A stretch of 33,715 nucleotides of DNA from Bacteroidales bacterium (lineage in GTDB: Bacteria; Bacteroidota; Bacteroidia; Bacteroidales; F082), in contig JAFYJV010000039.1 of the NCBI GenBank assembly GCA_017537965.1, positions 1-33,715 on the forward strand. The letters are read 5' to 3'. Under the pieces are notes generated by a model that saw only the letters and a program-made list of their open reading frames with translations, had not been told where the DNA came from and did not search any database. Shown piece after piece: positions 5,523-33,715 of this stretch (its first letter is position 1; every line of letters starts with the position of its first letter). A program made the position numbers and the translations under genes.

Positions 5523-5975
5523 TTATCTTTTCAGCACTTGCCAGGCCTTGGATTCTCCTTTTACGATCAGTTTCATGAGATAAAGACCTGCCGATCGACC
5601 TGAAAGATCGAATTCCACCGAACTATCCCTCACAGTTCTTTCATCAAGAAGCACTCCTTCGATCGTGAATAGAAAAACATGCACTTCGGGAACATCATCC
5701 TCGATTATCGACAACGTAAAACGATCAGGGGTGGGATTTGGATAAAGACTAACCTCCATCCCACAAAAACGCTCGGTCAGGCTACTTAAAAACGACGAAT
5801 CCAAATCCGTCCCGTTTCGAGTGTCATTTCGAAAACTAATAGTACGCGAAATGCGATTTCCGTTGGCATCATAAACAAAACTCACCGTTCCATAGTTTTG
5901 CGCCACGCCAACCAAAAAGAAAAAGCCGACAAAGGCTGCAAGCAACAAGGCTCTAATAAATGAATGTCTTATCAT
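5523..5975 (-). CDS. Small secreted protein with one RHS YD half-repeat and a T9SS type A sorting domain
   Basis: This is a 150-residue protein. I chose the ATG at 5975 because the hydrophobic signal segment (MIRHSFIRALLLAAFVGFFF) follows it directly; a longer in-frame start would overlap the upstream gene. After the signal peptide comes a single RHS-like half-repeat, VSFVYDANGNRISRTI. The last 75 or so residues resemble the Por secretion tail / T9SS type A sorting domain (SLYPNPTPDRFTLSI, then GLYLMKLIVKGESKAWQVLK). By family knowledge that domain sends cargo through the type IX system to the cell surface. It lies between the DUF3244-like gene (13-bp gap) and the giant RHS gene (21-bp gap), so co-expression is likely. 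A role as a partner or anchor of the RHS protein is inference. Confidence 0.88.
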   Translation of the reverse strand: MIRHSFIRALLLAAFVGFFFLVGVAQNYGTVSFVYDANGNRISRTISFRNDTRNGTDLDSSFLSSLTERFCGMEVSLYPNPTPDRFTLSIIEDDVPEVHVFLFTIEGVLLDERTVRDSSVEFDLSGRSAGLYLMKLIVKGESKAWQVLKR

Positions 5976-13163: not shown

Positions 13164-16100
13164 TCAATGCGTCTCCACGGGATAATGTCCCAAATACACC
13201 AACCCCAAATTGCCGTCGATGGCGATCTTGTCGCCCATGTTGAGGGGATGGCCATTGAGTTGGCCGAACTCGTCATCGATATCGACTTCGAGGCCGTCAC
13301 AGCTCACCACGCAGACCTTGCCGAGACGGACCGCCGTGACAGCGGCATGCGAAGTGGCTCCACCACGAGCGGTGAGCAGGCCGTCGCAATCGAAGATCAT
13401 GCCGATGTCGTCGGGCACCGTGTCGGGACGGACCAAGATGACATGCTCGCCAGGATGCTCCTCCCTTAAGGTCTTGATCTGTTCAGGGTTGAAGGCCGCC
13501 AAACCGTTCAAGGCACCGCCTCCGATGCCCATACCATGACCGATAGGATTCATCTCGTCGGGCGAGAGCACAAAGGCGGCGGGCTTCTCTTCGTTCTTCA
13601 AGTCCTGGTCGCGGGTCTGGAGGATATGGAAGTCATCGGGGTTGTCGCTCTCGAAGGTGAACTCGATCTCCTGCGGGCTGTAGCCGAGGTTTTCGGTGAG
13701 CTCCACGGCGACATTATAGATCTTCTTGTACATATCGGGCAATAGGGTCTGCATGGACGGACCTTCCAGTCCGGCAGCCTTGCGCTGGGTCTCGCCAATA
13801 GGCAATGGCTTCACCAAGCCGCCCACGATATCCTCGCCTTGGCTGCGCATGGTGAAGTCGCCATAAAGGTGCACGCCAGGCCGCTCACGGTTTGGGTTTT
13901 GCGTGAACACAACGCCGGTACCCGAAGAGGCACTACGGTTGCCGAAGATCATCTGTTGCACGATGACGGCGGTCCCCCAGTCTTCGGCGATGCCGAGATG
14001 GCGACGATACGCCAAGGCGCGCTCACTATTCCACGAGTCGATGACCATGTTGACGCATTCGATGAGTTGCTTGAAGGAATCCTGCTCAAAGGCCACGTCA
14101 TGATCCGCCAGGATACGCTTGTAGGCCATGGCGATCTCCTTCATCTGCTCCGCCGAGAAGTCGGCTTTCATCACCACGCCGGTCTGCTGCTTGTAGGCGT
14201 TGATCTCGTCGTCGAACTCATCGCGTTCGATACCCTTGGCCATGCCCCAACTCTGAAGCAAACGGCGATATGAGTCCCAGATGGCCCAACCTTTGTCGGG
14301 ATCCTGTGCCACGGCTTCGGCGATCTCATCGTTCAAGCCCACGTTTAGCAATGTGTCCATGGCACCAGGCATGGAGATGGCGGTACCCGAACGCACCGAG
14401 AGCAGCAGCGGATTCTTGGGATCACCGAAACGAAGCTTCGTGATGCCTTCCAGCCCAGTGATGAACTTGCGAATCATGCCATGGATCTCCGAACGCAGTT
14501 CGGGAATGGTGTTGATGGTCTCATTGCGACGGAAGGTCTCGGTGGTGATGACAAAGCCTGGAGGCACTGGCATCCCGTGTAGATACAGGTTCTTCAGGTG
14601 ATAGGCCTTGTTGCCGATAAACACCTGGTTGTCCATCTTGGGAGTGGCTTCCCAGAAGGGGCTGATCAGCATGTCGGAGTTGTACGACATGATGTCGCGA
14701 ATCAACTTCTCGTCGAGGTCGGCGGCCATGCCCCTCAAGGATTTCAGAATGCGGGCTATGAAGTTGTCCAAGGGTTGCATCAGGAAGGCATCCGACAAAA
14801 GGTCACGATGAAATTCCTCGGATTTCCGACTGATCAATGCGGCGGTCTCGCGCTCGTCGAGCTTGCCTTCGGGATCGAACAGCTGGGGCACCACCACCTT
14901 CAGCGGATATTCGTATGACTTCAGGAAGTAGCTGATCACAATGCGTTTGACATCTTCGGAGATAAACTGGAAGATGTTGATGTACTGGTCGAAGGTGAAG
15001 CTTCGTGACGTCAAGGCGTACTTGAGCATCTGAAGCTTGGCGTTGAGTCCCTGGTTGTTGATGCCGTCGAGTTCCAAACCCTCGCGGAAGTATTCCAAAA
15101 TGTCGTAGATCACCTCCAAGGTGCGCGCGGAGATGTATTCGAGGTTGATGCCCTGCACCACCTGTTCCATCAGCTGGGTGGCCACACGCTCCAACCTGAA
15201 CGTCAAACCCATGGCTTCGAACTTGTTTTCACGATAGGTGCCGTACATCGAAGGGATGCCTATAGCGATATGGCGCTTGTGGTAGATGTTCTCCCAACCT
15301 TCACTTTCCTCGGGGTTGAAAATGGTCTCCTTGAGTTTCTCCATGAAGGCATATATCATCTTCAGCGAAGTGCCCACATCCTTTTTCTTATAGGCTTTCT
15401 CGAATGCATTGATGTCCTTGTCGGCAATGAACGGGTAGTTGCGCAACGAGTTGAAGATGTTGACGCTCTCGAAGGAATATTTTTCACGCAAGAAGGCATA
15501 GAGATCCTTGATGTCCATGAGGCGGGCGTGTTCGCGATCGCCAATGGTTTGTTCAAGCCCAAGTTGCTCCACGGCGCGAACGATGAGTTTTTCAAAGTCG
15601 TCGCGTGAGAGCATTAGCAGGTCTTCGGGATCAAGGCAACTGGTCTCGCTCATCGCCACGGTGATGTCATGAACGTAGGTAAACCACTCGCTGTTGACAT
15701 CGATGCTGTCATAAACGTTGTTCGGAAGGATGGATTGGAGGTTTTCTTTGATGCCATCGCTCCAAAACTTGAATACACTGAGAGTCAGACCAATAAGCGT
15801 ATTGTTACTCTCGGTATGCACTTGCTTGCGAAGAAAATGCACCAGCCTGTCTTCACGACCCGAGATCTCGTCCATGTTGGTGGTGACGTTACGGATCTCG
15901 CCCTCGGCACCGATCTCGTTGAAATACACGGGGAAGATTCGGGTGAGTTGTTTCACTTTTTTATAATAGGGCGAAATGTTCGAGTTGAGGATCTTGGTGA
16001 TCTCACGCTGGAACAAGTCAGTGTCGCTCAAGAAGATGCCACCCAGCTTGAGGTTGACAATCAAGGATGAAAGCAATTTCTCCATGGGGAACTTGGAGTG

Positions 16101-17303
16101 CTCGATCAGTTCCAGCCACACGCGGATGTTCTTGATATGGTTCTCATCCACGGAAAGCTGCCAGTCCTCATCGACAAACACCTTGCCCGGGGTGACGAAG
16201 CCAAAGTTGATGAGTTTTTTCTCGAAATAGTTTACGATCTCTTTCTGTTCCGTCTGGTCAATGTCGATGATCTTCAAGCCCAAAGTCAGTTGGAAGTCGA
16301 GTACGGCCGACATATAGTCTTTGCGAAGTTCCTGGGCCAAGTCGAAGATGGTGTCGATGAAGGGCATGATTTGGTCTTGCGGCATCTCATCAACGGCTTC
16401 ACGCAACATCTTGTTCATGTTCCAAATCAGGCGTTCGCGCTGGCTCTCCATACCGGGCAAGTGCAGCAGATAAAACACATAATGGAACTTCGTGATGAAA
16501 TGCGGGAAAGTCTCTTCCGATTGGGTGAAGCGGCTGGCGATCTGGTCGAAGACCGGCATGTCGCTAAGCTTCTCCCAAGTGTCGTCGGCTTCGAGGTCGG
16601 CATTGAGTCGATCGAAATAGGGTTGACCGATGGATGCCTTGATGGCTTCAGCTTCCTGCGGTTCCACGAGCGACGCCTTCTCTTCGAGCCAGTTTTCCAC
16701 CATGGTGGTATCTTGCCAAAAGCGGTAAGTCTCTTTCAAGATGGTCTTCACGAGATGCATCACCTTGTCGTGATATGCGGCGTCAGGAGCCAACTTGTCA
16801 AGATAGCGGATGGCATATTTCGAAGCCAGGATATAGCAGTCGCGGTTGGCATCGAAGCGTTCTTCAAGGATCTCGAAAACAGCATCAATGATTCCGTCTT
16901 CCGTCTTCGGTCTTCCGCCTTCCGCCTTCTGTCTTCTGTCTTCTGAAGAAACAAACTCCAAAAGGGTATTGACAATACTGAGCCTTAACTTCTTAGGAAC
17001 ATCAGGCCTTAGCAGGCTGCGCATCATCTCCAGCGGGATGAGCAAGGCATCGGCAGGCACGTCGTCGCGGGTATAGAACCAAAAATCGTCCATGAGGATC
17101 TTGCGGAGTTCCTCGATGACGAAGGTGTGGTTCGATAGCGGGTGGTGATATTCAGTGATGCATTCCTTGGCTCGTTTGTTGATGCCAAAATACTTGGCCG
17201 AAAGGTTGATGAATTGCTGATGTTCTTCCGGAATGAAAATATCTTTATACCGGGTTTGTTCCAGATTGGCCTCAAGAGCCTGTGATTTAAAAGAATCCGA
17301 CAT
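13164..17303 (-). CDS. PEP synthase / pyruvate phosphate dikinase-like protein without the PEP-binding barrel
   Basis: This is a 1379-residue protein starting at the ATG at 17303. Residues 1 to about 880 match no family I recognise; they are mostly helical and charged. Residues about 885-1230 are the ATP-grasp PEP/pyruvate-binding domain: GNKAYHLKNLYLHGMPVPPG, LLSVRSGTAISMPGAMDTLL near 960, SSGTGVVFTQNPNRERPG, and EIEFTFESDNPDDFHILQTR. Residues about 1290-1370 are the mobile phosphohistidine domain, with TARGGATSHAAVTAVRLGK and catalytic His1319. The protein then ends, so the C-terminal TIM barrel that handles PEP/pyruvate in true PpsA or PpdK is missing. The expected chemistry is ATP-dependent His phosphorylation and transfer to an acceptor that is unknown. 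A purine-rich in-frame insert encodes residues 121-137. Annotation as PEP synthase would be only partly justified. Confidence 0.9.
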   Translation of the reverse strand: MSDSFKSQALEANLEQTRYKDIFIPEEHQQFINLSAKYFGINKRAKECITEYHHPLSNHTFVIEELRKILMDDFWFYTRDDVPADALLIPLEMMRSLLRPDVPKKLRLSIVNTLLEFVSSEDRRQKAEGGRPKTEDGIIDAVFEILEERFDANRDCYILASKYAIRYLDKLAPDAAYHDKVMHLVKTILKETYRFWQDTTMVENWLEEKASLVEPQEAEAIKASIGQPYFDRLNADLEADDTWEKLSDMPVFDQIASRFTQSEETFPHFITKFHYVFYLLHLPGMESQRERLIWNMNKMLREAVDEMPQDQIMPFIDTIFDLAQELRKDYMSAVLDFQLTLGLKIIDIDQTEQKEIVNYFEKKLINFGFVTPGKVFVDEDWQLSVDENHIKNIRVWLELIEHSKFPMEKLLSSLIVNLKLGGIFLSDTDLFQREITKILNSNISPYYKKVKQLTRIFPVYFNEIGAEGEIRNVTTNMDEISGREDRLVHFLRKQVHTESNNTLIGLTLSVFKFWSDGIKENLQSILPNNVYDSIDVNSEWFTYVHDITVAMSETSCLDPEDLLMLSRDDFEKLIVRAVEQLGLEQTIGDREHARLMDIKDLYAFLREKYSFESVNIFNSLRNYPFIADKDINAFEKAYKKKDVGTSLKMIYAFMEKLKETIFNPEESEGWENIYHKRHIAIGIPSMYGTYRENKFEAMGLTFRLERVATQLMEQVVQGINLEYISARTLEVIYDILEYFREGLELDGINNQGLNAKLQMLKYALTSRSFTFDQYINIFQFISEDVKRIVISYFLKSYEYPLKVVVPQLFDPEGKLDERETAALISRKSEEFHRDLLSDAFLMQPLDNFIARILKSLRGMAADLDEKLIRDIMSYNSDMLISPFWEATPKMDNQVFIGNKAYHLKNLYLHGMPVPPGFVITTETFRRNETINTIPELRSEIHGMIRKFITGLEGITKLRFGDPKNPLLLSVRSGTAISMPGAMDTLLNVGLNDEIAEAVAQDPDKGWAIWDSYRRLLQSWGMAKGIERDEFDDEINAYKQQTGVVMKADFSAEQMKEIAMAYKRILADHDVAFEQDSFKQLIECVNMVIDSWNSERALAYRRHLGIAEDWGTAVIVQQMIFGNRSASSGTGVVFTQNPNRERPGVHLYGDFTMRSQGEDIVGGLVKPLPIGETQRKAAGLEGPSMQTLLPDMYKKIYNVAVELTENLGYSPQEIEFTFESDNPDDFHILQTRDQDLKNEEKPAAFVLSPDEMNPIGHGMGIGGGALNGLAAFNPEQIKTLREEHPGEHVILVRPDTVPDDIGMIFDCDGLLTARGGATSHAAVTAVRLGKVCVVSCDGLEVDIDDEFGQLNGHPLNMGDKIAIDGNLGLVYLGHYPVETH
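16896..16943 (-). repeat. In-frame purine-rich short-repeat insert in the PEP-synthase-like gene
   Basis: On the coding strand the units GAAGACAGAAGACAGAAG, GCGGAAGGCGGAAG and ACCGAAGACGGAAGACGG encode EDRRQKAEGGRPKTEDG (residues 121-137). It lies between two ordinary helical stretches and resembles the purA insert at 26693-26743 and the intergenic copies at 20108-20133, 25500-25536 and 26855-26888. Confidence 0.75.
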
Positions 17304-17357
17304 GTATTGTGTTGTTATAATTTCAATATTTTTATTTTGTTGTTTTATGAATTTTTT

Positions 17358-17412
17358 ACAAACTTCGGGGCCATAAGTTGGTTTTTTATCGAGTTAAAGC
17401 CCGAAAGTCTGC
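17358..17412 (+). repeat. 55-bp hairpin element, left copy (downstream of the ATPase gene)
   Basis: This copy aligns without gaps to 18938-18992, in the same orientation, at 48 of 55 positions. The right arm GCCCGAAAGTCTGC is intact, while the left arm (ACAAACTTCGGGGCC) has drifted, so the hairpin is imperfect. It ends 7 nt from the ATPase stop codon and is followed on the plus strand by a run of seven T. Confidence 0.85.
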
Positions 17413-17419
17413 ATTTTTT

Positions 17420-18883
17420 TCAGTGGAACAAGTCCTTTAGGGTCACTACATTTTGAAAAAACGAACTGTATTTGTTGTGTGTCAATCCATAGGATGTGAC
17501 AAGAACGGGATGGATGGCGCACCGCATTTTCCGGCTGTCGCGGAAAGCCTTGACACGACGCGTGATATCCGCATAATCTTTTGCTTTCATGGTATAGTAA
17601 TCGTCATAGTATTTCATTTCGCAAACGTTGATCACCTTGTCGGCACGTTGAATGATCATGTCGATCTGCGCTTTGTCTTTCGCATCGGAGGAAGTGTTCC
17701 AGGAATACACTTGGGTGATGATGCCAGAAATGCCCAAGCTTTTCTCGATCTGTTGATGGTGGTTCAAACACAGTTGTTCAAAGGCAAGTCCCGCCCAGGT
17801 ATCGTGTGTTCGGGTTCCGATTTGGTACTGCCAGAATGGTTTGTCGGAATGGCCGTATTTTTTGACAAACTTGAAATAAAACAAGGTGAAAGGGTCGATC
17901 AGTTGATAAATACCCAAGCGTGTTCTGCTGCCATAGCCTTTATAGTAGCGGACAAAATCGCAATCGACAAGGTCTTTGAGCACTTTGGAGAAATGTCCGT
18001 TGACTTCCAGTTTTGTGGCTTTCAGGATCTCTTCCCTGGTCAGGCCTTTGTTTTTCGTACTCAAGGCTTCCACCACTTTGATGTAGTTATCCGACTTCTC
18101 AAACAAAGAGCTGTACAAGGCGTCAAACTCATCATCCAGGCGTCCGTGCTCGGCAAAAAACATCTCATCCACATTTTGCGACAGGCTGGCGCCTCGGCGA
18201 AGGTTCTTCAGATAATAGGGAATGCCGCCCATGATCATGTAACACTCGGCAATCTCCTTATCGTCCATCTCAATTCCTTGATGACGGATATAATCCCTGC
18301 ATTCGGCCAAGGTGAACGGACGGATAAAGAGTTTCTGGGTAACCCGGTTGTGCAAACCGCCTTTGTTTTTCAGGATCTTACGTGTAATCCATGAAGTGGC
18401 TGATCCACAGACAACGAGCACCAGGTCCTTTTGCGTTACCGCCCAGTTGTTCCAAAAATGCTCCAAAGCCGAAACGAGATTGCTTCCACGCGAGTCGAGC
18501 CAAGGCAATTCGTCGATGAAGACCACCCGTTTGGTTTTCGTGGCAGCACGGTTGTTTCCACTTCTTTTCGACTCCAACAACTCCCTGAGTTTTTCAAAAG
18601 CTTCGTACCAGGTGCGAGGCTTGGTGAATTTCCTTCCATCGCCATATCGGTTGAGCGACGCGGTGAAATTGGCCAATTGTTCCCGCTTGCTGTTTTTGGC
18701 AAGACCCGTCAACTTGAAAGCATAATGGTCGTTGAAAAACGTGTTGACCAGAAAAGTCTTCCCCACTCTACGGCGGCCATACACCACCACAAACTCGGCT
18801 TCCCTTGACTTCATGATGGTTTCCAAGTGCTCAATTTCATTTTTCCTTCCCACCATGACATTGGATGAAAACTGCTTTTTCAT
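17420..18883 (-). CDS. AAA ATPase with C-terminal PD-(D/E)XK-like (DUF234-type) domain, bracketed by hairpin repeats
   Basis: This is a 487-residue protein. I chose the ATG at 18883; a TTG two codons upstream is the only other nearby start. Residues 36-43 are Walker A (GRRRVGKT). Walker B is RVVFIDELPWLD, and VLVVCGSATSWI fits sensor 1. A winged-helix-like middle part follows (NKGLTREEILKATKLEVNGH). The C-terminal region has the spacing D-x(12)-E-x-K in QIDMIIQRADKVINVCEMKY, which fits the PD-(D/E)XK nuclease core of DUF234-type ATPases. By family knowledge these are ATPase_2/DUF234 proteins, common in archaea and Bacteroidetes and often in many copies, with no clear function. Its unusual context is two direct copies of a 55-bp hairpin element, at 17358-17412 and 18938-18992. 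It interrupts a run of metabolic genes and no transposase is seen. Confidence 0.93.
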   Translation of the reverse strand: MKKQFSSNVMVGRKNEIEHLETIMKSREAEFVVVYGRRRVGKTFLVNTFFNDHYAFKLTGLAKNSKREQLANFTASLNRYGDGRKFTKPRTWYEAFEKLRELLESKRSGNNRAATKTKRVVFIDELPWLDSRGSNLVSALEHFWNNWAVTQKDLVLVVCGSATSWITRKILKNKGGLHNRVTQKLFIRPFTLAECRDYIRHQGIEMDDKEIAECYMIMGGIPYYLKNLRRGASLSQNVDEMFFAEHGRLDDEFDALYSSLFEKSDNYIKVVEALSTKNKGLTREEILKATKLEVNGHFSKVLKDLVDCDFVRYYKGYGSRTRLGIYQLIDPFTLFYFKFVKKYGHSDKPFWQYQIGTRTHDTWAGLAFEQLCLNHHQQIEKSLGISGIITQVYSWNTSSDAKDKAQIDMIIQRADKVINVCEMKYYDDYYTMKAKDYADITRRVKAFRDSRKMRCAIHPVLVTSYGLTHNKYSSFFQNVVTLKDLFH

Positions 18884-18908
18884 GGACAATGATGATTTTT
18901 TTCCACTG

Positions 18909-18916
18909 CAAAAGTA
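18909..18916 (-). promoter_or_regulatory. -7 element of the ATPase gene
   Basis: On the minus strand TACTTTTG (TAnnTTTG) lies 25 nt before the ATG at 18883. The position where a -33 element is expected is taken by the edge of the hairpin element 18938-18992. Confidence 0.55.
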
Positions 18917-18937
18917 AGAATCTTTTTTGAAAAAATT

Positions 18938-18992
18938 GCAGACTTTCGGGCCATAAGTCGATTTTTTATCGAGTTAAGGCCCGAAAGTCTGC
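18938..18992 (+). repeat. 55-bp hairpin element, right copy (upstream of the ATPase gene)
   Basis: The arms GCAGACTTTCGGGCC (18938-18952) and GGCCCGAAAGTCTGC (18978-18992) are a perfect 15-bp inverted repeat, 17 bp with the flanking TT/AA pairs. The 25-nt loop holds a second, smaller palindrome, TCGAT-TTTTT-ATCGA. It is a direct copy of 17358-17412. It lies in the promoter region of the ATPase gene and about 107 bp before gapA. Confidence 0.92.
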
Positions 18993-19050
18993 AAAAAAAG
19001 GTGTATTGTCAAAAAAAATGATTGGTGCGGAATATTTTGATGGAAAATTG

Positions 19051-19058
19051 TATTTTTG
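19051..19058 (+). promoter_or_regulatory. -7 element of gapA
   Basis: TATTTTTG (TAnnTTTG) lies 41 nt before the gapA ATG. A TTTG at 19036-19039 is too close (11 nt) to be a normal -33 element. Confidence 0.55.
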
Positions 19059-19099
19059 CAGTTTGAATTCAACGAACAATCATCAAATTACAATTCGAT

Positions 19100-20107
19100 A
19101 TGGAAAAGATTAAAGTAGGTATCAATGGTTTCGGCCGCATTGGCCGCAACGTGTTCCGCATCATCTGCGAACGTCCGAATCTGGAAATCGTGGGCGTCAA
19201 CGACCTGACGAGCACCAAGGTGCTGGCCCACCTCTTGAAATATGACTCCACCCAGGGCAAGTTCCCCGGCACCGTGGAATATGACGAGACCGCGCTGATC
19301 GTCAACGGCCAACGCATCCCCGTCACCGCCGAGCGTTCTCCGCTGAACATCAAGTGGGGCAAGACCCCCGATGTGGTGGTTGAGTCCACCGGCGTGTTCC
19401 GTTCCAAGGAAAGCAGCAAGGGCGGCTATGGCGACCACCTAAAGAACGGCGCCAAGAAAGTCATCCTCTCCGCTCCCTCGAAAGATGCCATCGACGCCAC
19501 CATCGTGGTCGGCGTGAACAACCATGAGCTCACCGATGACATCGAATGCGTCAGCAACGCCTCTTGCACCACCAACTGCCTGGCTCCCGTGGCCAAGGTG
19601 TTGAACGACCGTTTCGGCATCGAGCAGGGTTACATCACCACCATCCACAGCTACACCAACGACCAGGTCATCCTCGACGGTCCGCACAGCGACCTGCGCC
19701 GCGCCCGTTCGGCCGCCATGTCGCAGATCCCCACCACCACCGGCGCCGCCAAGGCAGTGGGCATCGTGATCCCTGACCTTAACGGCAAGCTCGACGGCAT
19801 CGCCGTCCGCGTCCCCACCCCGACCGGCTCACTGGTTGACCTCGTCTGCACATTGAAGACCGAAGCCACCAAGGAAGAGATCAACGCCGCCATGAAAGAA
19901 GCCGCCGAAGGCCCGATGAAAGGCGTCCTCGAATACACCGAAGACCCAATCGTGAGCTGCGACGTCATCCACAACCCACACAGCAGCATCTTCGATGCCC
20001 AAAGCACCATGGTGATGGGCAAGATGGTGAAGATCATGTCGTGGTACGACAACGAATGGGGTTACTCCAACAGAATGGTGGACCTCATTGAGATGATGAA
20101 GTATTAA
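19100..20107 (+). CDS. gapA: Glyceraldehyde-3-phosphate dehydrogenase, type I
   Basis: This 335-residue protein is of the usual length. By family knowledge it catalyses the phosphorylating, NAD-dependent oxidation of glyceraldehyde 3-phosphate in cytoplasmic glycolysis and gluconeogenesis. It shows the nucleotide-binding start KVGINGFGRIGRNVFRI, an Asp after VGVN that favours NAD over NADP, the active-site segment SNASCTTNCLAPV with Cys156, and the C-terminal WYDNEWGYSNRMVDL. Its codons are strongly biased to C-ending forms, as expected for a highly expressed gene. It converges on the minus-strand T9SS cargo gene with 34 bp between, where a purine-rich repeat and a short palindrome lie. Confidence 0.99.
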   Translation: MEKIKVGINGFGRIGRNVFRIICERPNLEIVGVNDLTSTKVLAHLLKYDSTQGKFPGTVEYDETALIVNGQRIPVTAERSPLNIKWGKTPDVVVESTGVFRSKESSKGGYGDHLKNGAKKVILSAPSKDAIDATIVVGVNNHELTDDIECVSNASCTTNCLAPVAKVLNDRFGIEQGYITTIHSYTNDQVILDGPHSDLRRARSAAMSQIPTTTGAAKAVGIVIPDLNGKLDGIAVRVPTPTGSLVDLVCTLKTEATKEEINAAMKEAAEGPMKGVLEYTEDPIVSCDVIHNPHSSIFDAQSTMVMGKMVKIMSWYDNEWGYSNRMVDLIEMMKY

Positions 20108-20133
20108 AAGAAGACAGAAGTAAGAAGTAAGAA
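20108..20133. repeat. Purine-rich short repeat after gapA
   Basis: AAAGAAGACAGAAG followed by TAAGAAGTAAGAAG begins just after the gapA stop. It has the same unit as the copies at 25500-25536 and 26855-26888. Confidence 0.65.
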
Positions 20134-20145
20134 GTTACTTCTTAC
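20127..20145. repeat. Short perfect palindrome between gapA and the T9SS cargo gene
   Basis: GTAAGAAGT-T-ACTTCTTAC has 9-bp arms and a 1-nt centre. It contains the stop codon of the minus-strand gene (20142-20144). It could help end transcription from both sides, but it is AT-rich, has no useful loop and lacks a T run. Confidence 0.5.
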
Positions 20146-25059: not shown

Positions 25060-25500
25060 ATGAAAGAGAACAACGAAAGCATCGCACTGACGGTGAGGAA
25101 GATCTTCACGGACTATCTGCAGCAGCACAACCTGCGCAAGACACCGGAACGCTTCGCCATCCTGCAGGAGATCTATTCGACAAACGGCCATTTCGACATT
25201 GAGTCGCTCTACAACAAGATGAAAGACAACAAGTACCGTGTCAGCCGCGCCACCTTGTACAACACCATCGAGTTATTGCTCGACTGCAACTTGGTGATCA
25301 AGCACCAGTTCGGGCACAACTGCGCGCAGTACGAACGCTCCTACAAGTTCAGGCAACACGACCATTTCGTGGACCTTGACACCGGCCAGGTGCTGGAGTA
25401 TTGTGACCCGAGGCTGCTTGAGATCCAAAAGACCATCGAAGAGGAACTTGGGGTGGTAGTGACACATCATTCGTTGATTTTTTATGGGCATAAGAAATAA
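25060..25500 (+). CDS. Fur-family transcriptional regulator
   Basis: This is a 146-residue protein. I chose the ATG at 25060 because the frame extension to 24991 overlaps rel and the -7 box. The N-terminal winged helix is present ([20 protein letters not shown], then [20 protein letters not shown]). The dimerisation part has the metal-type histidines of [17 protein letters not shown] and [10 protein letters not shown]. Where typical Fur has a CxxC zinc pair (CLDCG) this protein has DLDTG, and it has no C-terminal cysteine pair, so the structural zinc site seems absent. The metal or signal it senses cannot be told. It lies 52 bp after rel and 43 bp before purA. Confidence 0.93.
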
Positions 25501-25536
25501 GAAGTAAGAAGATAGAAGTAAGAAGTAAGAATAATA
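25500..25536. repeat. Purine-rich short repeat between the Fur-family gene and purA
   Basis: Units AGAAGTAAGAAG, ATAGAAGTAAGAAG and TAAGAATAA fill nearly the whole 43-bp intergenic space and begin at the Fur stop codon. They have the same unit as at 20108-20133. Confidence 0.7.
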
Positions 25537-25543
25537 CTTGAGT

Positions 25544-26854
25544 ATGAATAAGATAGATATTTTATTAGGATTACAATGGGGAGACGAAGGCAAAGGCAAG
25601 GTAGTGGATGCACTCACCCCGAATTACGACATTGTGGCGCGCTTTCAAGGCGGTCCCAACGCAGGTCACACCATCGAGTTTGAAGGCAAGAAATTCGTGT
25701 TACACAACATCCCGTCGGGTGTGCTGACCCCAGGCTGCGTCAATATCATCGGCAACGGCGTCATCATCGAGCCGCACATCCTCAAAGGCGAGGTGGAAGG
25801 CTTGAAACAGGCTGGGTTCAGCCTTGGCAAGACCCTGATGATCTCCAATCGCGCCCACCTCATCCTTCCCACCCACCGCGCCCTCGACGCTGCCAACGAG
25901 AAGGCCTTGGGCAAGATGAAGATCGGCTCCACGCTAAAAGGCATCGGTCCCACCTATACCGACAAAACAGCACGCAAAGGCTTGCGCATAGGCGACATCG
26001 CCATGGGCGACTTCATGGCTAAATACGAGAAATTGAAACAAGCCCATCTGCAACAGATCGCGAGCCTGGGCTTCGACATGAACGGCTTCCAACTCGACGG
26101 CATGGACTTCGCCGACTACGAGAAGCTCTGGTTCGAAGGCGTGGACTACATCCGCCAGTTCCCCTTCATCGACAGCGAATACTATATCAACGAGGCCCTC
26201 GACCAAGGCAAGAAGGTGTTGGCCGAAGGTGCCCAAGGCTCCATGCTCGACGTGGACTTCGGCAGTTATCCCTTCGTCACCTCCTCCAACGTCATCGCCG
26301 CCGGCGTCTGCAACGGCCTTGGCATCGCCCCCAACAGGATCGGCAAGGTGTATGGCATCTTCAAGGCCTACTGCACCCGTGTGGGCACCGGCCCCTTCCC
26401 CACCGAGCTGTTCGACGCCACTGGCGAGACGCTCCGCCAGAACGGCCACGAGTTCGGCGCCACCACAGGCCGTCCGCGCCGCTGCGGATGGCTCGACCTG
26501 CCCGCCCTCAAATACGCCGTCATGCTCAGCGGCGTCACCGACCTGATGATGATGAAATCAGACGTGATGGACGAGTTCGAGACCATCAAGGTGGCCACCG
26601 CCTACCGTTACAACGGACAGGAGACACAGCATCTGCCCTTCGCCGCTTGCACCGAGACGATGGAACCCGTGTATGCCGAGTTGCCTGGATGGAGAGAGAA
26701 AATTGAAGACAGGAGACAGGAGACAGAAGACGGGAGAAAGAAGATGATACCGGAAAGGTTAGAAGAGTATATTGAATTCATAGAGAATTATGTCGGCGTT
26801 CCGATCAAATTCGTCTCCTACGGCCCCGACCGCACCCAGAACATCATTAGATAA
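25544..26854 (+). CDS. purA: Adenylosuccinate synthetase with a short in-frame repeat insert
   Basis: This is a 436-residue protein. I chose the ATG at 25544 (a TTG lies two codons upstream). By family knowledge it joins IMP and aspartate using GTP in AMP synthesis. The catalytic P-loop-like start is LGLQWGDEGKGKVVDALTPN with Asp14. Other signatures are GGPNAGHTIEF, GIGPTYTDKTARKGLRIGDI, LAEGAQGSMLDVDFGSYPFV and TTGRPRRCGWLDL. The C-terminus ends in KFVSYGPDRTQNII. Residues about 384-400 (REKIEDRRQETEDGRKK) replace the usual loop after LPGW and are encoded by the purine-rich repeat at 26693-26743. The active-site residues lie elsewhere, so the enzyme is probably functional. Confidence 0.97.
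   Translation: MNKIDILLGLQWGDEGKGKVVDALTPNYDIVARFQGGPNAGHTIEFEGKKFVLHNIPSGVLTPGCVNIIGNGVIIEPHILKGEVEGLKQAGFSLGKTLMISNRAHLILPTHRALDAANEKALGKMKIGSTLKGIGPTYTDKTARKGLRIGDIAMGDFMAKYEKLKQAHLQQIASLGFDMNGFQLDGMDFADYEKLWFEGVDYIRQFPFIDSEYYINEALDQGKKVLAEGAQGSMLDVDFGSYPFVTSSNVIAAGVCNGLGIAPNRIGKVYGIFKAYCTRVGTGPFPTELFDATGETLRQNGHEFGATTGRPRRCGWLDLPALKYAVMLSGVTDLMMMKSDVMDEFETIKVATAYRYNGQETQHLPFAACTETMEPVYAELPGWREKIEDRRQETEDGRKKMIPERLEEYIEFIENYVGVPIKFVSYGPDRTQNIIR
26693..26743 (+). repeat. In-frame purine-rich short-repeat insert in purA
   Basis: Units GAAGACAGGAGACAGGAGACAG and AAGACGGGAGAAAGAAG encode EDRRQETEDGRKK within a loop before the final helix. Unit and reading frame match the insert in the PEP-synthase-like gene (16896-16943). 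Confidence 0.75.
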
Positions 26855-26888
26855 TAGAAGAGAGAAGAGAGAAGTAAGAAGACAGAAT
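26855..26888. repeat. Purine-rich short repeat between purA and the ATP-grasp gene
   Basis: TAGAAGAGAGAAGAGAGAAG followed by TAAGAAGACAGAA occupies essentially the whole gap between the purA stop and the next ATG (26889). Confidence 0.7.
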
Positions 26889-28040
26889 ATGATAGTTTTA
26901 GAAAAGCCATACGTTTCGGCACCTTTGGTCGCCTATCTTGAAGAAAAACAGATCCCCGTATTGCATAACGACATGGCCGAACTGCTTAAGCAACAAGGCC
27001 ATCAGCTTCATCTCTTGGACGACGAGCAGTTTGTGGAAAGATACCGGCAGACCCAACAGCTCTATGCCGTCTCGGAAAATGCCCTGGTTTGGCTCTATGC
27101 GCAATTGCCCGAATCAGAGTTGGTCAAGAAAGTCAAGATCTTGAAGGACAAAGCCGAGTTCAGGAGGATATGCCAGCAGATCTATCCCGACTTCTATTAT
27201 AAAGAGGTGGAGATGAAAGAGTTGCCTCGCCTGAATCCCGATGAATTGCCTTTGCCCCTTGTGCTGAAGCCAGCCGTGGGATTCCTGAGCGTTGGCGTTT
27301 ATATCGTCAGGAGCAAAGCAGAATGGCATGCCGCCTTGGATGACATCGACCAGAATTTCGCCAAGCAGTGCGCCGTGTTTCCCGAGACCGTGGTGCGCAG
27401 CGAGAAGTTCGTGCTGGAGCAGTTCATCGAAGGCGAGGAATATGCCGTGGACGCCTACTATGACGCCGAAGGCAAGCCGAACATCATCAACATCTTCCAC
27501 CACATCTTCAAGAACGAGACCGATGTGAGCGACCGGCTCTACTGCATGAGCAAGCAGATCTTCGAGACCAACTATCCTGCTTTCAACCAGTTCTGCATCG
27601 ATTTGAATGGCGTGCTGCAACTCAAGAACTTCCCGATGCACGTGGAGTTCCGTGTGGACAAAAACACAGGACGCGCCATCCCCATCGAGGTGAATCCGTT
27701 GCGTTTCGCTGGCATGTGCTTGAATGATCTCACTCGCCACACCTGCGGCTTGTTGCCCGTGCGCGCCTATTTCGAAGGAACCCATCCCGACTACGCCACC
27801 ATGTGGAACGGCATTGAGGACGATGTGTTCAGTTTCGTCGTCTTGGACAAACCCTACGACACCAACCGAAAGCTTGACTTTGAGCGGATCCGCCGCCATT
27901 TCCACGGCGTGTTGGAGACCCGTGACATCATGAATCCCGCCATGAGCATTTGGGGGTTCCTCTTCACGAAAACCAGTCCTGCCCACCGCGAGGAACTACA
28001 AGAGATTTTGCATTCCACCTTAGAAGAGTTTATGCTGTAA
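26889..28040 (+). CDS. ATP-grasp domain enzyme, substrate unknown
   Basis: This is a 383-residue protein. I chose the ATG at 26889 because the longer frame starts inside purA and would read through the purine repeat. The ATP-grasp pattern is present: LPLPLVLKPAVGFLSVGVYI (ATP-binding Lys), EKFVLEQFIEGEEYAVDAYY, and metal-binding acidic and Asn residues in HVEFRVDKNTGRAIPIEVNP. These enzymes join a carboxylate to an amine or thiol using ATP. The acceptor cannot be told from sequence. It follows purA by 34 bp and may be co-transcribed, but a role in purine synthesis is not shown because it resembles neither PurK nor PurT in its N-terminal part. Confidence 0.88.
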   Translation: MIVLEKPYVSAPLVAYLEEKQIPVLHNDMAELLKQQGHQLHLLDDEQFVERYRQTQQLYAVSENALVWLYAQLPESELVKKVKILKDKAEFRRICQQIYPDFYYKEVEMKELPRLNPDELPLPLVLKPAVGFLSVGVYIVRSKAEWHAALDDIDQNFAKQCAVFPETVVRSEKFVLEQFIEGEEYAVDAYYDAEGKPNIINIFHHIFKNETDVSDRLYCMSKQIFETNYPAFNQFCIDLNGVLQLKNFPMHVEFRVDKNTGRAIPIEVNPLRFAGMCLNDLTRHTCGLLPVRAYFEGTHPDYATMWNGIEDDVFSFVVLDKPYDTNRKLDFERIRRHFHGVLETRDIMNPAMSIWGFLFTKTSPAHREELQEILHSTLEEFML

Positions 28041-30832: not shown

Positions 30833-33715
30833 ATGAAGATTTTACGTTTTTTCGTGCTCCTTCTCGCCGTTATGATCAGCGGGAATATGGCTGCTCAGAG
30901 CCAGAAGGCACTAAATGATCTCATGCGCGAGCGCAACGAGTATTATTTCACGCTAACCGTTCAGCAACCTTCTGAGATTCAAACCATCAACGAGATTTGT
31001 TCCGTTGATGCCGTCAAAGGCAAATCCGTGGTTTGCTATGCCAACCAACAGCAATACGACAAGCTGCTTCAGGCAGGTTACAAGCCCACGCTTATGACTC
31101 CTCCTTGCATGCAGGAAGAGACCGTCATGTGGGATGGCAGTAACCGCGCAGCATACGAATGGGACAGCTATCCCACCTACGATGCTTATCAGAGCATGAT
31201 GGAAGCCTTTCCGTCGCAAGCCTTGAGCGACCGCACTTGCACTTTGCTCGACCTTGGTACTTTGAACAGCGGCCGCAAGATCTTGGGTGTGCGCCTCTAT
31301 AAAGGTCAACCTGATGGCAAGCCGAGGTTCCTCTACAGTTCCACCATGCATGGCGATGAGGTGACGGGCATGATGCTCATGCTACGTCTCATCGACGAGT
31401 TCTGCACCAGCACCGACTCACGCATCGTCAATATCCTTGAGAACGTGGACGTCTTTATCTTCCCCTTGACCAATCCTGACGGCACCTATTATGGTGGCAA
31501 CAGCACCATGAATAGTGCCCGCCGATACAACATCAACGGAGTTGACCTGAACCGCAACTACAAGGACTATTATATTGGAGAGCACCCAGATGGCGAGTCA
31601 TACGCCTTGGAGACCCAATGGACCATGCAGTTGGCTCAAGACTATCTTTTCACCATGAGTGCCAACTATCACGGCGGTGCCGAGGTGGCAAACTATCCTT
31701 GGGATGCCATTACTGCAAGACATCCCGATGATGCCTGGTACCAATACGTTTGTCGGGACTATGTCAGTCGTGCCAGGGCGGTTAGCTCTTCCTATATGAC
31801 GGACACTTATTCCAGTGGCATCACCAATGGCTATGACTGGTATCAGATCACAGGTAGCCGCCAAGACTACGAGAACGCCTACGGTCAATGTCGCGAGATA
31901 ACCATGGAATGTTCCACCACAAAGAAACCCAACGCCTCCACCATGCCCACCTATTGGAATTACAACCATGATGCCATGCTGGGTCTTTTGGAGCAATGCT
32001 TGAATGGCGTTCATGGCTTCGTGTATGATGCTGTGACCAACGCTGCTCTCCAAGGCGTCACCGTCACGGTGGAAAACCATGACAACGACATTTCAAAAAT
32101 CACCACCTACAATGCCGGTGATTTCCACCGTCCCATTAAAGGCGGTACATACACCTTCACCTTTGCCAAACAAGGCTATTATTCCCAGTCGGTACAAGTT
32201 ACCGTGACTGACGGTGGAAGACAGGACCTGACCATCTATCTCGAGCCTAATCTCAACTTGGACGCTGATTTCACGGCCTCGACCACCAATGCTTCTTTGG
32301 GTCAAAGCATTAGCTTTACCGATGCTTCAGACGGCATGGTATCTTCATGGAGCTGGACCTTCGAAGGTGCTACACCTTCCACCTCTACAGAACAGAACCC
32401 CACCGGCATCACATATAACACGCCTGGCGACTATGATGTCACACTGACCGTCACGGGCCCCACTGGTCATACCGACACCAAAACCAAGGAGAATTACATC
32501 CATGTTACGGAATCCATCCTCATGCAAAATGGATCGGTGACGACATGCAGCGGTTTGTTCTACGATTCGGAAGGTGCCAACTCCAACTATGGCGACAACC
32601 TCGACTACACGATGACCTTCTATCCTGAAACCGAAGATGCCTCCATCAGCGTTGCTTTCTCTGAGTTCAACACAGAATCAAACTACGACTACCTATACAT
32701 CTACAATGGCACCTCAACCTCAGCCACCCTTATCGGTCAATACTCAGGGACCAATGGTCCCGGCACGGTGACCGCTACCAATGCCGACGGCGCATTGACT
32801 TTCCGTTTTACTTCCGACAGTAATACGAATAGGACTGGTTGGGTCGCTACTTTGTCCTGTGTGGAAAGACCTGAAGTGGTTATGAGCTGCTATTATCCGG
32901 CAAGTAGCATGTCGGCCGGCGATTACGTCATGGGCAATCTCAACGGATCGTCGTTAGCTATGCCTTCGCACAACAACGCCTCAACAGTGACCACCGCTAC
33001 TGCAGCTGTCACATCGACTGACTACGGCTTCACTGCGGAAGAGGGAACCACCCCGCAAGTCACCTTGACGGAATACCAAAACGGTCAGTATTACATTTCC
33101 TATAATGGAAGGTATTTGGCCAAATCCAATTATGGCAACAGCCTCACTTGGGGAACTTCCACGAGCCAATATGGAAGATGGCATATCGATGCTAACGGCA
33201 TTTATGTGACTCAAAATAACAGAAACTATTATCTCTATTACAGCAACGGTTTCCAACTTAGCAACACACAGCAGAACAACATCACCTTCTATGTTGCTGG
33301 CGATTGCCCGTCTGCTGTTACCTACACCATTACTACAACCGCTAATCCGACCGAAGGCGGCACCGTCAGTGGCGCTGGCACTTTTGAACAAGGCGAGACC
33401 TGCACTTTGACCGCCACGGCCAACGAAGGCTACACCTTTGTCAATTGGACAGAAGATGGGGAAGCGGTTTCCGCCGAGGCCACCTATACCTTTGATGTCA
33501 CCGCCGACCGTGAGTTGGTCGCCAACTTCACGCTGAACAGCTACGAGATCACAGTTTCGGCCAATCCGAGCAACGGCGGCACCGTCAGCGGCGCAGGCAC
33601 CTACAACCATGGTGCCACCGCCACCCTGACTGCCTCGGCAGTTGAAGGCTACGACTTTGTCAACTGGACCAAAAACGATACGGAAGTAAGCACCGAGGCC
33701 ACCTACAGCTTCACC
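30833..33715 (+). CDS. Secreted M14 zinc carboxypeptidase with PKD, CUB-like and InlB-type repeat domains, partial
   Basis: The frame is open from the ATG at 30833 to the right edge, 961 codons, so the C-terminus is missing. Signal peptide: MKILRFFVLLLAVMISGNMA. The M14 catalytic domain covers residues about 110-390. Zinc ligands are His173 and Glu176 (MHGDE) and His280 (NYHGG). Catalytic Glu359 is in EITMEC, and DLNRNY is the substrate-binding motif. It should release C-terminal residues from peptides outside the cell. A CarboxypepD_reg-like domain follows near 391-460 (GVHGFVYDAVTNAALQGVTV), then a PKD domain near 477-560, a CUB-like segment (DYLYIYNGTSTSATLIGQYS), and at least two InlB/Flg_new-type repeats of 73 residues (GGTVSGAGT, then GYTFVNWTEDG and GYDFVNWTKND). 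A T9SS tail is expected beyond the edge but not seen. Confidence 0.95.
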   Translation, partial: MKILRFFVLLLAVMISGNMAAQSQKALNDLMRERNEYYFTLTVQQPSEIQTINEICSVDAVKGKSVVCYANQQQYDKLLQAGYKPTLMTPPCMQEETVMWDGSNRAAYEWDSYPTYDAYQSMMEAFPSQALSDRTCTLLDLGTLNSGRKILGVRLYKGQPDGKPRFLYSSTMHGDEVTGMMLMLRLIDEFCTSTDSRIVNILENVDVFIFPLTNPDGTYYGGNSTMNSARRYNINGVDLNRNYKDYYIGEHPDGESYALETQWTMQLAQDYLFTMSANYHGGAEVANYPWDAITARHPDDAWYQYVCRDYVSRARAVSSSYMTDTYSSGITNGYDWYQITGSRQDYENAYGQCREITMECSTTKKPNASTMPTYWNYNHDAMLGLLEQCLNGVHGFVYDAVTNAALQGVTVTVENHDNDISKITTYNAGDFHRPIKGGTYTFTFAKQGYYSQSVQVTVTDGGRQDLTIYLEPNLNLDADFTASTTNASLGQSISFTDASDGMVSSWSWTFEGATPSTSTEQNPTGITYNTPGDYDVTLTVTGPTGHTDTKTKENYIHVTESILMQNGSVTTCSGLFYDSEGANSNYGDNLDYTMTFYPETEDASISVAFSEFNTESNYDYLYIYNGTSTSATLIGQYSGTNGPGTVTATNADGALTFRFTSDSNTNRTGWVATLSCVERPEVVMSCYYPASSMSAGDYVMGNLNGSSLAMPSHNNASTVTTATAAVTSTDYGFTAEEGTTPQVTLTEYQNGQYYISYNGRYLAKSNYGNSLTWGTSTSQYGRWHIDANGIYVTQNNRNYYLYYSNGFQLSNTQQNNITFYVAGDCPSAVTYTITTTANPTEGGTVSGAGTFEQGETCTLTATANEGYTFVNWTEDGEAVSAEATYTFDVTADRELVANFTLNSYEITVSANPSNGGTVSGAGTYNHGATATLTASAVEGYDFVNWTKNDTEVSTEATYSFT
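33356..33715 (+). repeat. Tandem InlB-type coding repeats, period 219 bp
   Basis: GGCGGCACCGTCAG at 33356-33369 recurs at 33575-33588. The period is 219 bp (73 codons). The second unit is cut by the window edge. Confidence 0.75.

Follow-up and report, generated by a model that had tools for sequence, protein, structure and literature searches.

Matching hairpins around an ATPase-nuclease gene suggest a one-gene mobile element behind a family of candidate anti-virus defence proteins

Why should one gene in a Bacteroidales genome stand between two copies of the same hairpin, and do these hairpins belong to the site, to the regulation of the gene, or to a unit that moves? The gene lies in the window, by which we mean the whole stretch of 33,715 nt that was analysed, a contig (G000:C41) of a genome of 2.32 Mb in 41 contigs that is 94% complete. 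On re-measurement the layout reported in the initial annotation proved exact: the gene (17420-18883, minus strand) is enclosed by two 55-nt copies in the same orientation (17358-17412 and 18938-18992), identical at 48 of 55 positions, the left copy 7 nt past the stop codon and the right copy 54 nt ahead of the ATG. The right copy is, as was also claimed there, a hairpin with perfect 15-bp arms; in the left copy 10 of the 15 pairs are formed. The repeat extends to 71 nt at 83% identity (17343-17413 and 18923-18993), and the extended right hairpin has 27-nt arms that match at 93%. A repeat and palindrome search placed the left, imperfect hairpin, downstream of the gene, at 17356-17413; the right hairpin, upstream of the gene, spans 18936-18994. 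When the right copy was compared with its own genome it matched itself and the left copy only (E = 7e-15), each match appearing on both strands because the copies are palindromes, and since the next match reached only E = 0.5, a chance origin of the pair is excluded. Terminal inverted repeats were considered and ruled out, the repeats being direct (83% identity in direct versus 76% in inverted orientation).

Hairpin, gene and hairpin together form a unit of 1641 nt (17356-18996, minus strand) that is homologous along its full stretch, at 76%, to a sister unit in genome G018. Outside it lie a PPDK-like gene on the left (13164-17303, minus strand; PF01326, PF00391) and gapA on the right (19100-20107, plus strand). 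Between the right hairpin and the gene, the sequence TACTTTTG (18909-18916, minus strand) resembles the -7 box of Bacteroidota promoters. Elsewhere in the window, purine-rich short tandem repeats (GAAGTAA, GAAGACA and similar) occur at 16912-16946, 20109-20134, 25489-25533, 26700-26744 and 26845-26889, several of them close to reading-frame ends and one, on the other strand, within the PPDK-like frame; a 110-nt direct repeat of 75% identity occupies 33341-33450 and 33560-33669, its starts 219 nt apart.

The encoded protein, of 487 residues from the ATG or 489 from a TTG at 18889, matched ATPase_2 (PF01637, E = 5.5e-20) and, over nearly the full length of the profile, the PADLOC family PDC-S27 (residues 12-488, E = 1e-193); by sequence, the gene is a member of PDC-S27. 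The label of DUF234-type ATPase that it had been given does not hold, as Pfam DUF234 (PF03008) is absent among its matches at E<=1 and the two matches just named are found instead. NCBIfam and PHROGs listed nothing for the protein. The Walker A motif, the DE of Walker B, and residues E371, D410, E424 and K426 (window protein numbering) are invariant in 39 of 39 aligned proteins. We assign the last four to the E...D...ExK of a putative PD-(D/E)XK nuclease, a reading that agrees with the available text of PMC12988326, where PDC-S27 and PDC-S01 are described as ATPase domains fused to members of the PD-(D/E)XK superfamily. Among PDB sequences, the family profile matched at E<=0.01 only TnsC of Tn6677, weakly and in its ATPase part (E = 4.7e-4 and 1.5e-3).

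PADLOC lists PDC-S27 as a phage defence candidate, and both families are treated as abundant defence candidates in the accessible portions of PMC12988326 and PMC13356809. The former states that experimental validation is pending for most such candidates; it places PDC-S01 fourth among prokaryotic defences by frequency and counts 3503 archaeal and 4562 bacterial detections of PDC-S27, with no mechanism given in the text available. In the available part of PMC4158269, an archaeal AAA+ ATPase joined to HTH and RecB nuclease domains is listed as likely to be a gene of defence or of plasmids. Matches to the family protein numbered from 0 to 24 per genome and were present in 29 of 60 genomes, the window's own included.

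The site itself is informative. The PPDK-like gene and gapA stand head to head, and they share a contig at 23 places in 22 genomes of the same genus. At 12 of the 23 the junction measures 77-114 nt and is without the unit (G020, G034, G013, G002, G012, G003, G031, G021, G028, G033, G016 and contig 26 of G004); the corresponding distance in the window is 1796 nt (17304-19099). The junction of G020, whose PPDK-like protein is the closest to the window's (93%), is 77 nt long. Distances of 1.1-8.1 kb were found at ten places (1128 nt in G008 and 1737 nt in G014, for example), and at the place in G024 the first 98 residues of gapA are missing from the match. No family protein was found between the two genes at any of the 23 places, among the matches listed. 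A hairpin search at the empty junctions gave no match, and 10 of the 12 short junctions, inspected by eye, were also without a hairpin. Comparison of these sites indicates that the 1.64-kb unit of the window is an insertion. The initial annotation had anticipated relatives with no ATPase and a single hairpin copy at this junction; the empty junction was found and the retained copy was not, and, with 12 of 23 junctions empty, the gene and both its flanks are not fixed in all relatives.

Two further loci gave a similar picture. The nearest sister unit, in G018, has 83% protein identity and a hairpin on either side, and lies upstream of a gene that we take, by eye, to be fusA. The distance from the left neighbour to fusA is 1763 nt in G018, versus 128 nt in G021 and G002 and 167 nt in G030, and at the sites of these last three genomes no hairpin was evident to the eye. 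Other DNA, of 984, 1441 and 1721 nt, lies between the same neighbours in G016, G003 and G031, with no family match among those listed. Ahead of fusA on contig 31 of G022 stands one solo hairpin without a family gene; because the DNA after it matches G018, it is best read as a relic, and it probably derives from a unit. The unit on contig 20 of G018 (L086) is missing in five of six genomes (G012, G022, G007, G010 and G016), where the flank matches are 0-104 nt apart; G014, the sixth, holds 1840 nt. At all three loci the site is occupied in some relatives by other DNA of comparable size, and for this reason, and because intergenic DNA is too diverged, the exact ends cannot be read from the empty sites. 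Insertion into a pre-existing hairpin was considered and is disfavoured, since the hairpin search and inspection by eye revealed none at the empty PPDK-like/gapA junctions, and inspection by eye none at the fusA sites of G021, G002 and G030.

Where similar units occupy unrelated sites, homology ceases at the outer edges of both hairpins; the stretch shared by the window and the G018 sister unit is 17356-18996. Two units, in G018 and G012, are 96.0% identical over 1565 nt and have unrelated flanks, and the units of L208 and L213, also at unrelated places, are 91.8% identical over 1624 nt. Because identity between G018 and G012 is 79-85% elsewhere, and 91% in fusA, the unit that is 96% identical probably moved recently. 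The empty sites and the unrelated flanks thus bear out the mobile part of an earlier suggestion, that the unit could be a transposase-free mobile cassette. Unit length ranged from 1549 to 1792 nt, with a median of 1648, in the 58 units that had a left-right score of at least 25 and a palindrome score of at least 10. The terminal repeat of a unit is about 40-140 nt long, in direct orientation, and holds one or two palindromes; some units have two hairpins per end, on both sides. Loops of 13 nt are the most frequent (22 of 118), and many loops are A- or T-rich.

How general is this arrangement? The search found 163 family genes; flanks and length sufficed in 153, and after uniqueness was required 152 remained, 149 of them with 450 nt on both sides. 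The 149, which include the window's gene, were drawn from the window's relatives and close matches and are not a random sample of PDC-S27. Direct repeats containing a hairpin lie on both sides of 64 of the 149 family genes, versus 1 of 193 control genes of the same loci, and on both sides of 6 of 55 DUF4143-type (S01) ATPases. The remaining 85 of the 149 have no hairpin pair, and the two other full-length family copies in the window's own genome (L067, L068) are both without one. Looser scoring gave 81 of 152 family genes, a count that mixes hairpins with long non-hairpin repeats, and 19 of 66 S01-labelled genes, a count that includes gene-end duplications and S27 genes missed by the motif rule; the stricter figures are those given above. 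In the 149-gene count a masking letter could match itself and produce repeated rows, while the locus counts of hairpin repeats stand; this count misses second repeats behind a hairpin (those of L071 and L095 were found only by a separate comparison) and places borderline palindromes, such as that of L138, on the non-hairpin side.

Single palindromes are more widespread. An upstream palindrome was found at 117 of 152 family genes, 23 of 66 S01-labelled genes and 33 of 214 controls, and a downstream palindrome, at the same score, at 76 of 152, 19 of 66 and 70 of 214, respectively; 49 of 71 family copies without a left-right match have an upstream palindrome. Relatives of the family protein, mostly distant, occur in 144 plasmid records, 8 phage records and 7 viral contigs. 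Upstream palindromes of similar score are present on plasmids of Butyrivibrio, Emticicia and Segatella; scores are lower in Halobaculum, Malaciobacter and Desulfosarcina, and low in Haloferax. The plasmid and phage genes examined outside the relatives had no matching downstream copy. Among six viral-contig genes, that of L395 has a matching downstream copy that is palindromic (score 32.5), and that of L397 has a weaker, non-palindromic match (21). In Wolbachia phage WO (L409, MN180249), two tandem imperfect palindromes, seen by eye and of low score, lie at about 2400-2490 upstream of a PDC-S27-like gene, which has head-tail genes on one side and other phage genes on the other.

The two ends of a unit match each other and seldom match those of other units. 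The left and right ends of one copy matched above the cut-off in 15 of 23 copies in G018, versus 2 of 506 comparisons between different copies; the figures for G022 are 15 of 21 and 2 of 420. Searches with 12 hairpins in G018 (where the scoring covered 40 of 45 first-look candidates), G022, G007, G023, G034 and G020 yielded 78 rows. By our own tally, 70 of them have a family gene no more than 130 nt away; the other rows fall at five solo places, and none was found in the three genomes with 0 or 1 family match. That hairpin copies always pair around such genes, as had been expected, is correct for the window's own genome, which has only the two copies rather than many at sites unrelated to ATPase genes, and agrees with the 70 of 78 rows; it fails at the five solo places and for the 85 family genes without a pair. 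Among 71 selected units, likeness of the downstream ends fell with protein identity: it was seen in 44 of 47 pairs at 80% identity or more, in 8 of 55 at 60-80% and in 4 of 2383 below 60%. Some of the closest pairs are one site in two species, and their likeness is partly that of the flank. These comparisons indicate that the two ends of a unit vary in step with each other and with the protein, which would be expected if the unit's own protein recognises them.

Hairpins were also seen in other settings. On contig 82 of G007 (L144), the same hairpin type, at about 4168-4220 and 5747-5795, brackets a different ATPase (AAA_14/DUF4143, PDC-S01 profile) that is additionally flanked by its own direct repeats of about 65 nt; hairpin ends seem to be common to both ATPase-nuclease families. 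On contig 109 of G022 (L106), two copies of one hairpin bracket a gene region, presumably DUF1016-like, directly upstream of a PDC-S27 gene (about 1530-2905, gene-oriented). A solo hairpin is shared by contig 3 of G023 (L018) and contig 1 of G034 (L019); the roughly 300 nt to its right are nearly identical between the two species and the left sides differ, and in G023 an ATPase gene with a DUF4143 match lies to the right of it.

Signs of the manner of movement were sought in the same loci. Among the 152 loci compared, no genome carried a near-identical pair at two places, and nothing in their sequences points to copying in place. There was no short target duplication (mean shared length 2.90, versus 2.71, sd 0.15, for shuffled flanks), and no excision product was seen. 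The absence of near-identical intragenomic pairs and of target duplications, with 0 to 24 matches per genome, fits a conservative (cut-and-paste) unit or horizontal spread, and not copy-and-paste. Long repeats not scored as hairpins bracket 14 of 149 family genes (one of them, at L138, a borderline palindrome), 6 of 55 S01 genes and 5 of 193 controls. At L071 (contig 12 of G018), L095, L181, L117, L333 and L334, imperfect direct copies, 36-118 nt long, of the end region of a neighbouring gene are found on both sides. Three copies of a gene end, from what looks by eye like radA, surround an S01 and an S27 gene at L071, as after serial insertion. These cases, small in number, suggest that some insertions duplicate a gene end.

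The explanation that we favour, with a probability of roughly 0.55, is that the unit is a mobile element of one gene, the product of which recognises the ends of the element. Each unit is about 1.65 kb long: one gene, for an AAA+ ATPase with a PD-(D/E)XK-like part, stands between two direct copies of a terminal repeat. The encoded protein would recognise and, as the initial annotation also proposed, act on the palindromes of its own unit, which would mark the ends; the upstream palindromes adjoin the likely promoter and may also control expression. With ATP, the protein would bring the two ends together and cut there, and this protein, rather than another enzyme, would move the unit without copying it, host repair closing the gap.

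The main competing explanation is that a PDC-S27 defence gene has been spread horizontally by host recombination, phages and plasmids, and that its palindromes are operators and a terminator. The protein would bind its own palindrome to control expression, the site would travel with the gene, an alternative already offered in the initial annotation, and change with it, and the left copy would end the transcript or limit read-through. The listing of the family by PADLOC as a phage defence candidate is in keeping with this, as are the position of the upstream palindrome beside a presumed promoter motif, the excess of upstream over downstream palindromes (117 versus 76 of 152), the mostly distant relatives in plasmid, phage and viral records, and the fact that each of the 12 hairpins searched marks mostly one unit per genome. 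It leaves unexplained, however, that units at unrelated sites lose their homology at the outer edges of both palindromes, that matching repeats stand at both ends, with two palindromes per end in some units, and that the left copy retains the same private stem at a distance from the promoter. We regard it as possible, if doubtful.

The unit might also be a passenger, comparable to a relative of IS200/IS605 with cargo, for which an HUH (Y1) transposase that acts on hairpin ends provides the movement in trans. Direct hairpins at both ends and the absence of a short target duplication would follow, and Y1 transposases are present in 9 of 10 genomes searched. The window's own genome, however, has no Y1 (PF01797) match, where at 94% completeness a gene may have been missed, and G022, with 21 family-protein matches, has one partial Y1-domain match (E = 1e-8). 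A single enzyme acting in trans needs a single type of end, yet the ends differ between copies of one genome, and we judge this origin improbable. Still harder to credit is an ordinary fixed gene with chance or terminator hairpins and no mobility. Downstream hairpins do occur in controls (70 of 214 at the same score), but the empty sites would then have to be deletions, and a left-right hairpin match distinguishes family genes from controls (64 of 149 versus 1 of 193).

Several known systems resemble the proposed single-gene element in part. Members of IS200/IS605 have a single gene, for an HUH Y1 transposase, and direct-orientation hairpins at both ends, and make no short target duplication. 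The unit shares the single gene, the direct hairpins and the lack of a short duplication, but its sole large gene encodes the ATPase-nuclease and not an HUH Y1 transposase, and near-identical intragenomic copies are absent among the loci compared. In REPtrons a RAYT transposase occurs with cognate REP palindromes, and here too one gene is flanked by palindromes that are private to the gene lineage and not amplified; the unit differs in having no RAYT and few dispersed palindromes (five solo places for 12 hairpins in six genomes). Although it is likewise hairpin-ended, the unit is not a member of either group, because the defining HUH transposase is absent. Tn7-like transposons employ the ATPase TnsC and the PD-(D/E)XK nuclease TnsA. 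The unit has AAA+ and PD-(D/E)XK-type parts as well, and TnsC of Tn6677 is the one, weak PDB match of the family profile at E<=0.01, but the parts are joined in one protein, the gene content of the unit includes no TnsB, there is no short duplication, and the ends are of another kind. The protein family is the same as the PDC-S27 of PMC12988326, in whose available text neither flanking palindromes nor a mobile unit is mentioned; the word hairpin is absent from its main text. Nor was any mention of flanking palindromes of the PDC-S27 or PDC-S01 families found in the text available from open-access journal articles. No known kind that was tested fits, and we therefore rate the unit a new kind, by a mechanism that we infer.

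More tentatively, at somewhat less than an even chance, the family would represent a new kind of transposition enzyme, in which one AAA+ ATPase and PD-(D/E)XK-like polypeptide moves its own gene by means of co-evolving, private palindromic ends; by extension, much of PDC-S27 and part of PDC-S01/DUF4143 would be selfish elements or mobile defence units. Should units of this kind set their own boundaries and be mobile, then mobile elements are being tallied among defence systems, and it becomes possible to test a compact enzyme that recognises ends private to its unit. Our observations suggest that a one-gene mobile element stands behind a family now listed as candidate anti-virus defence.
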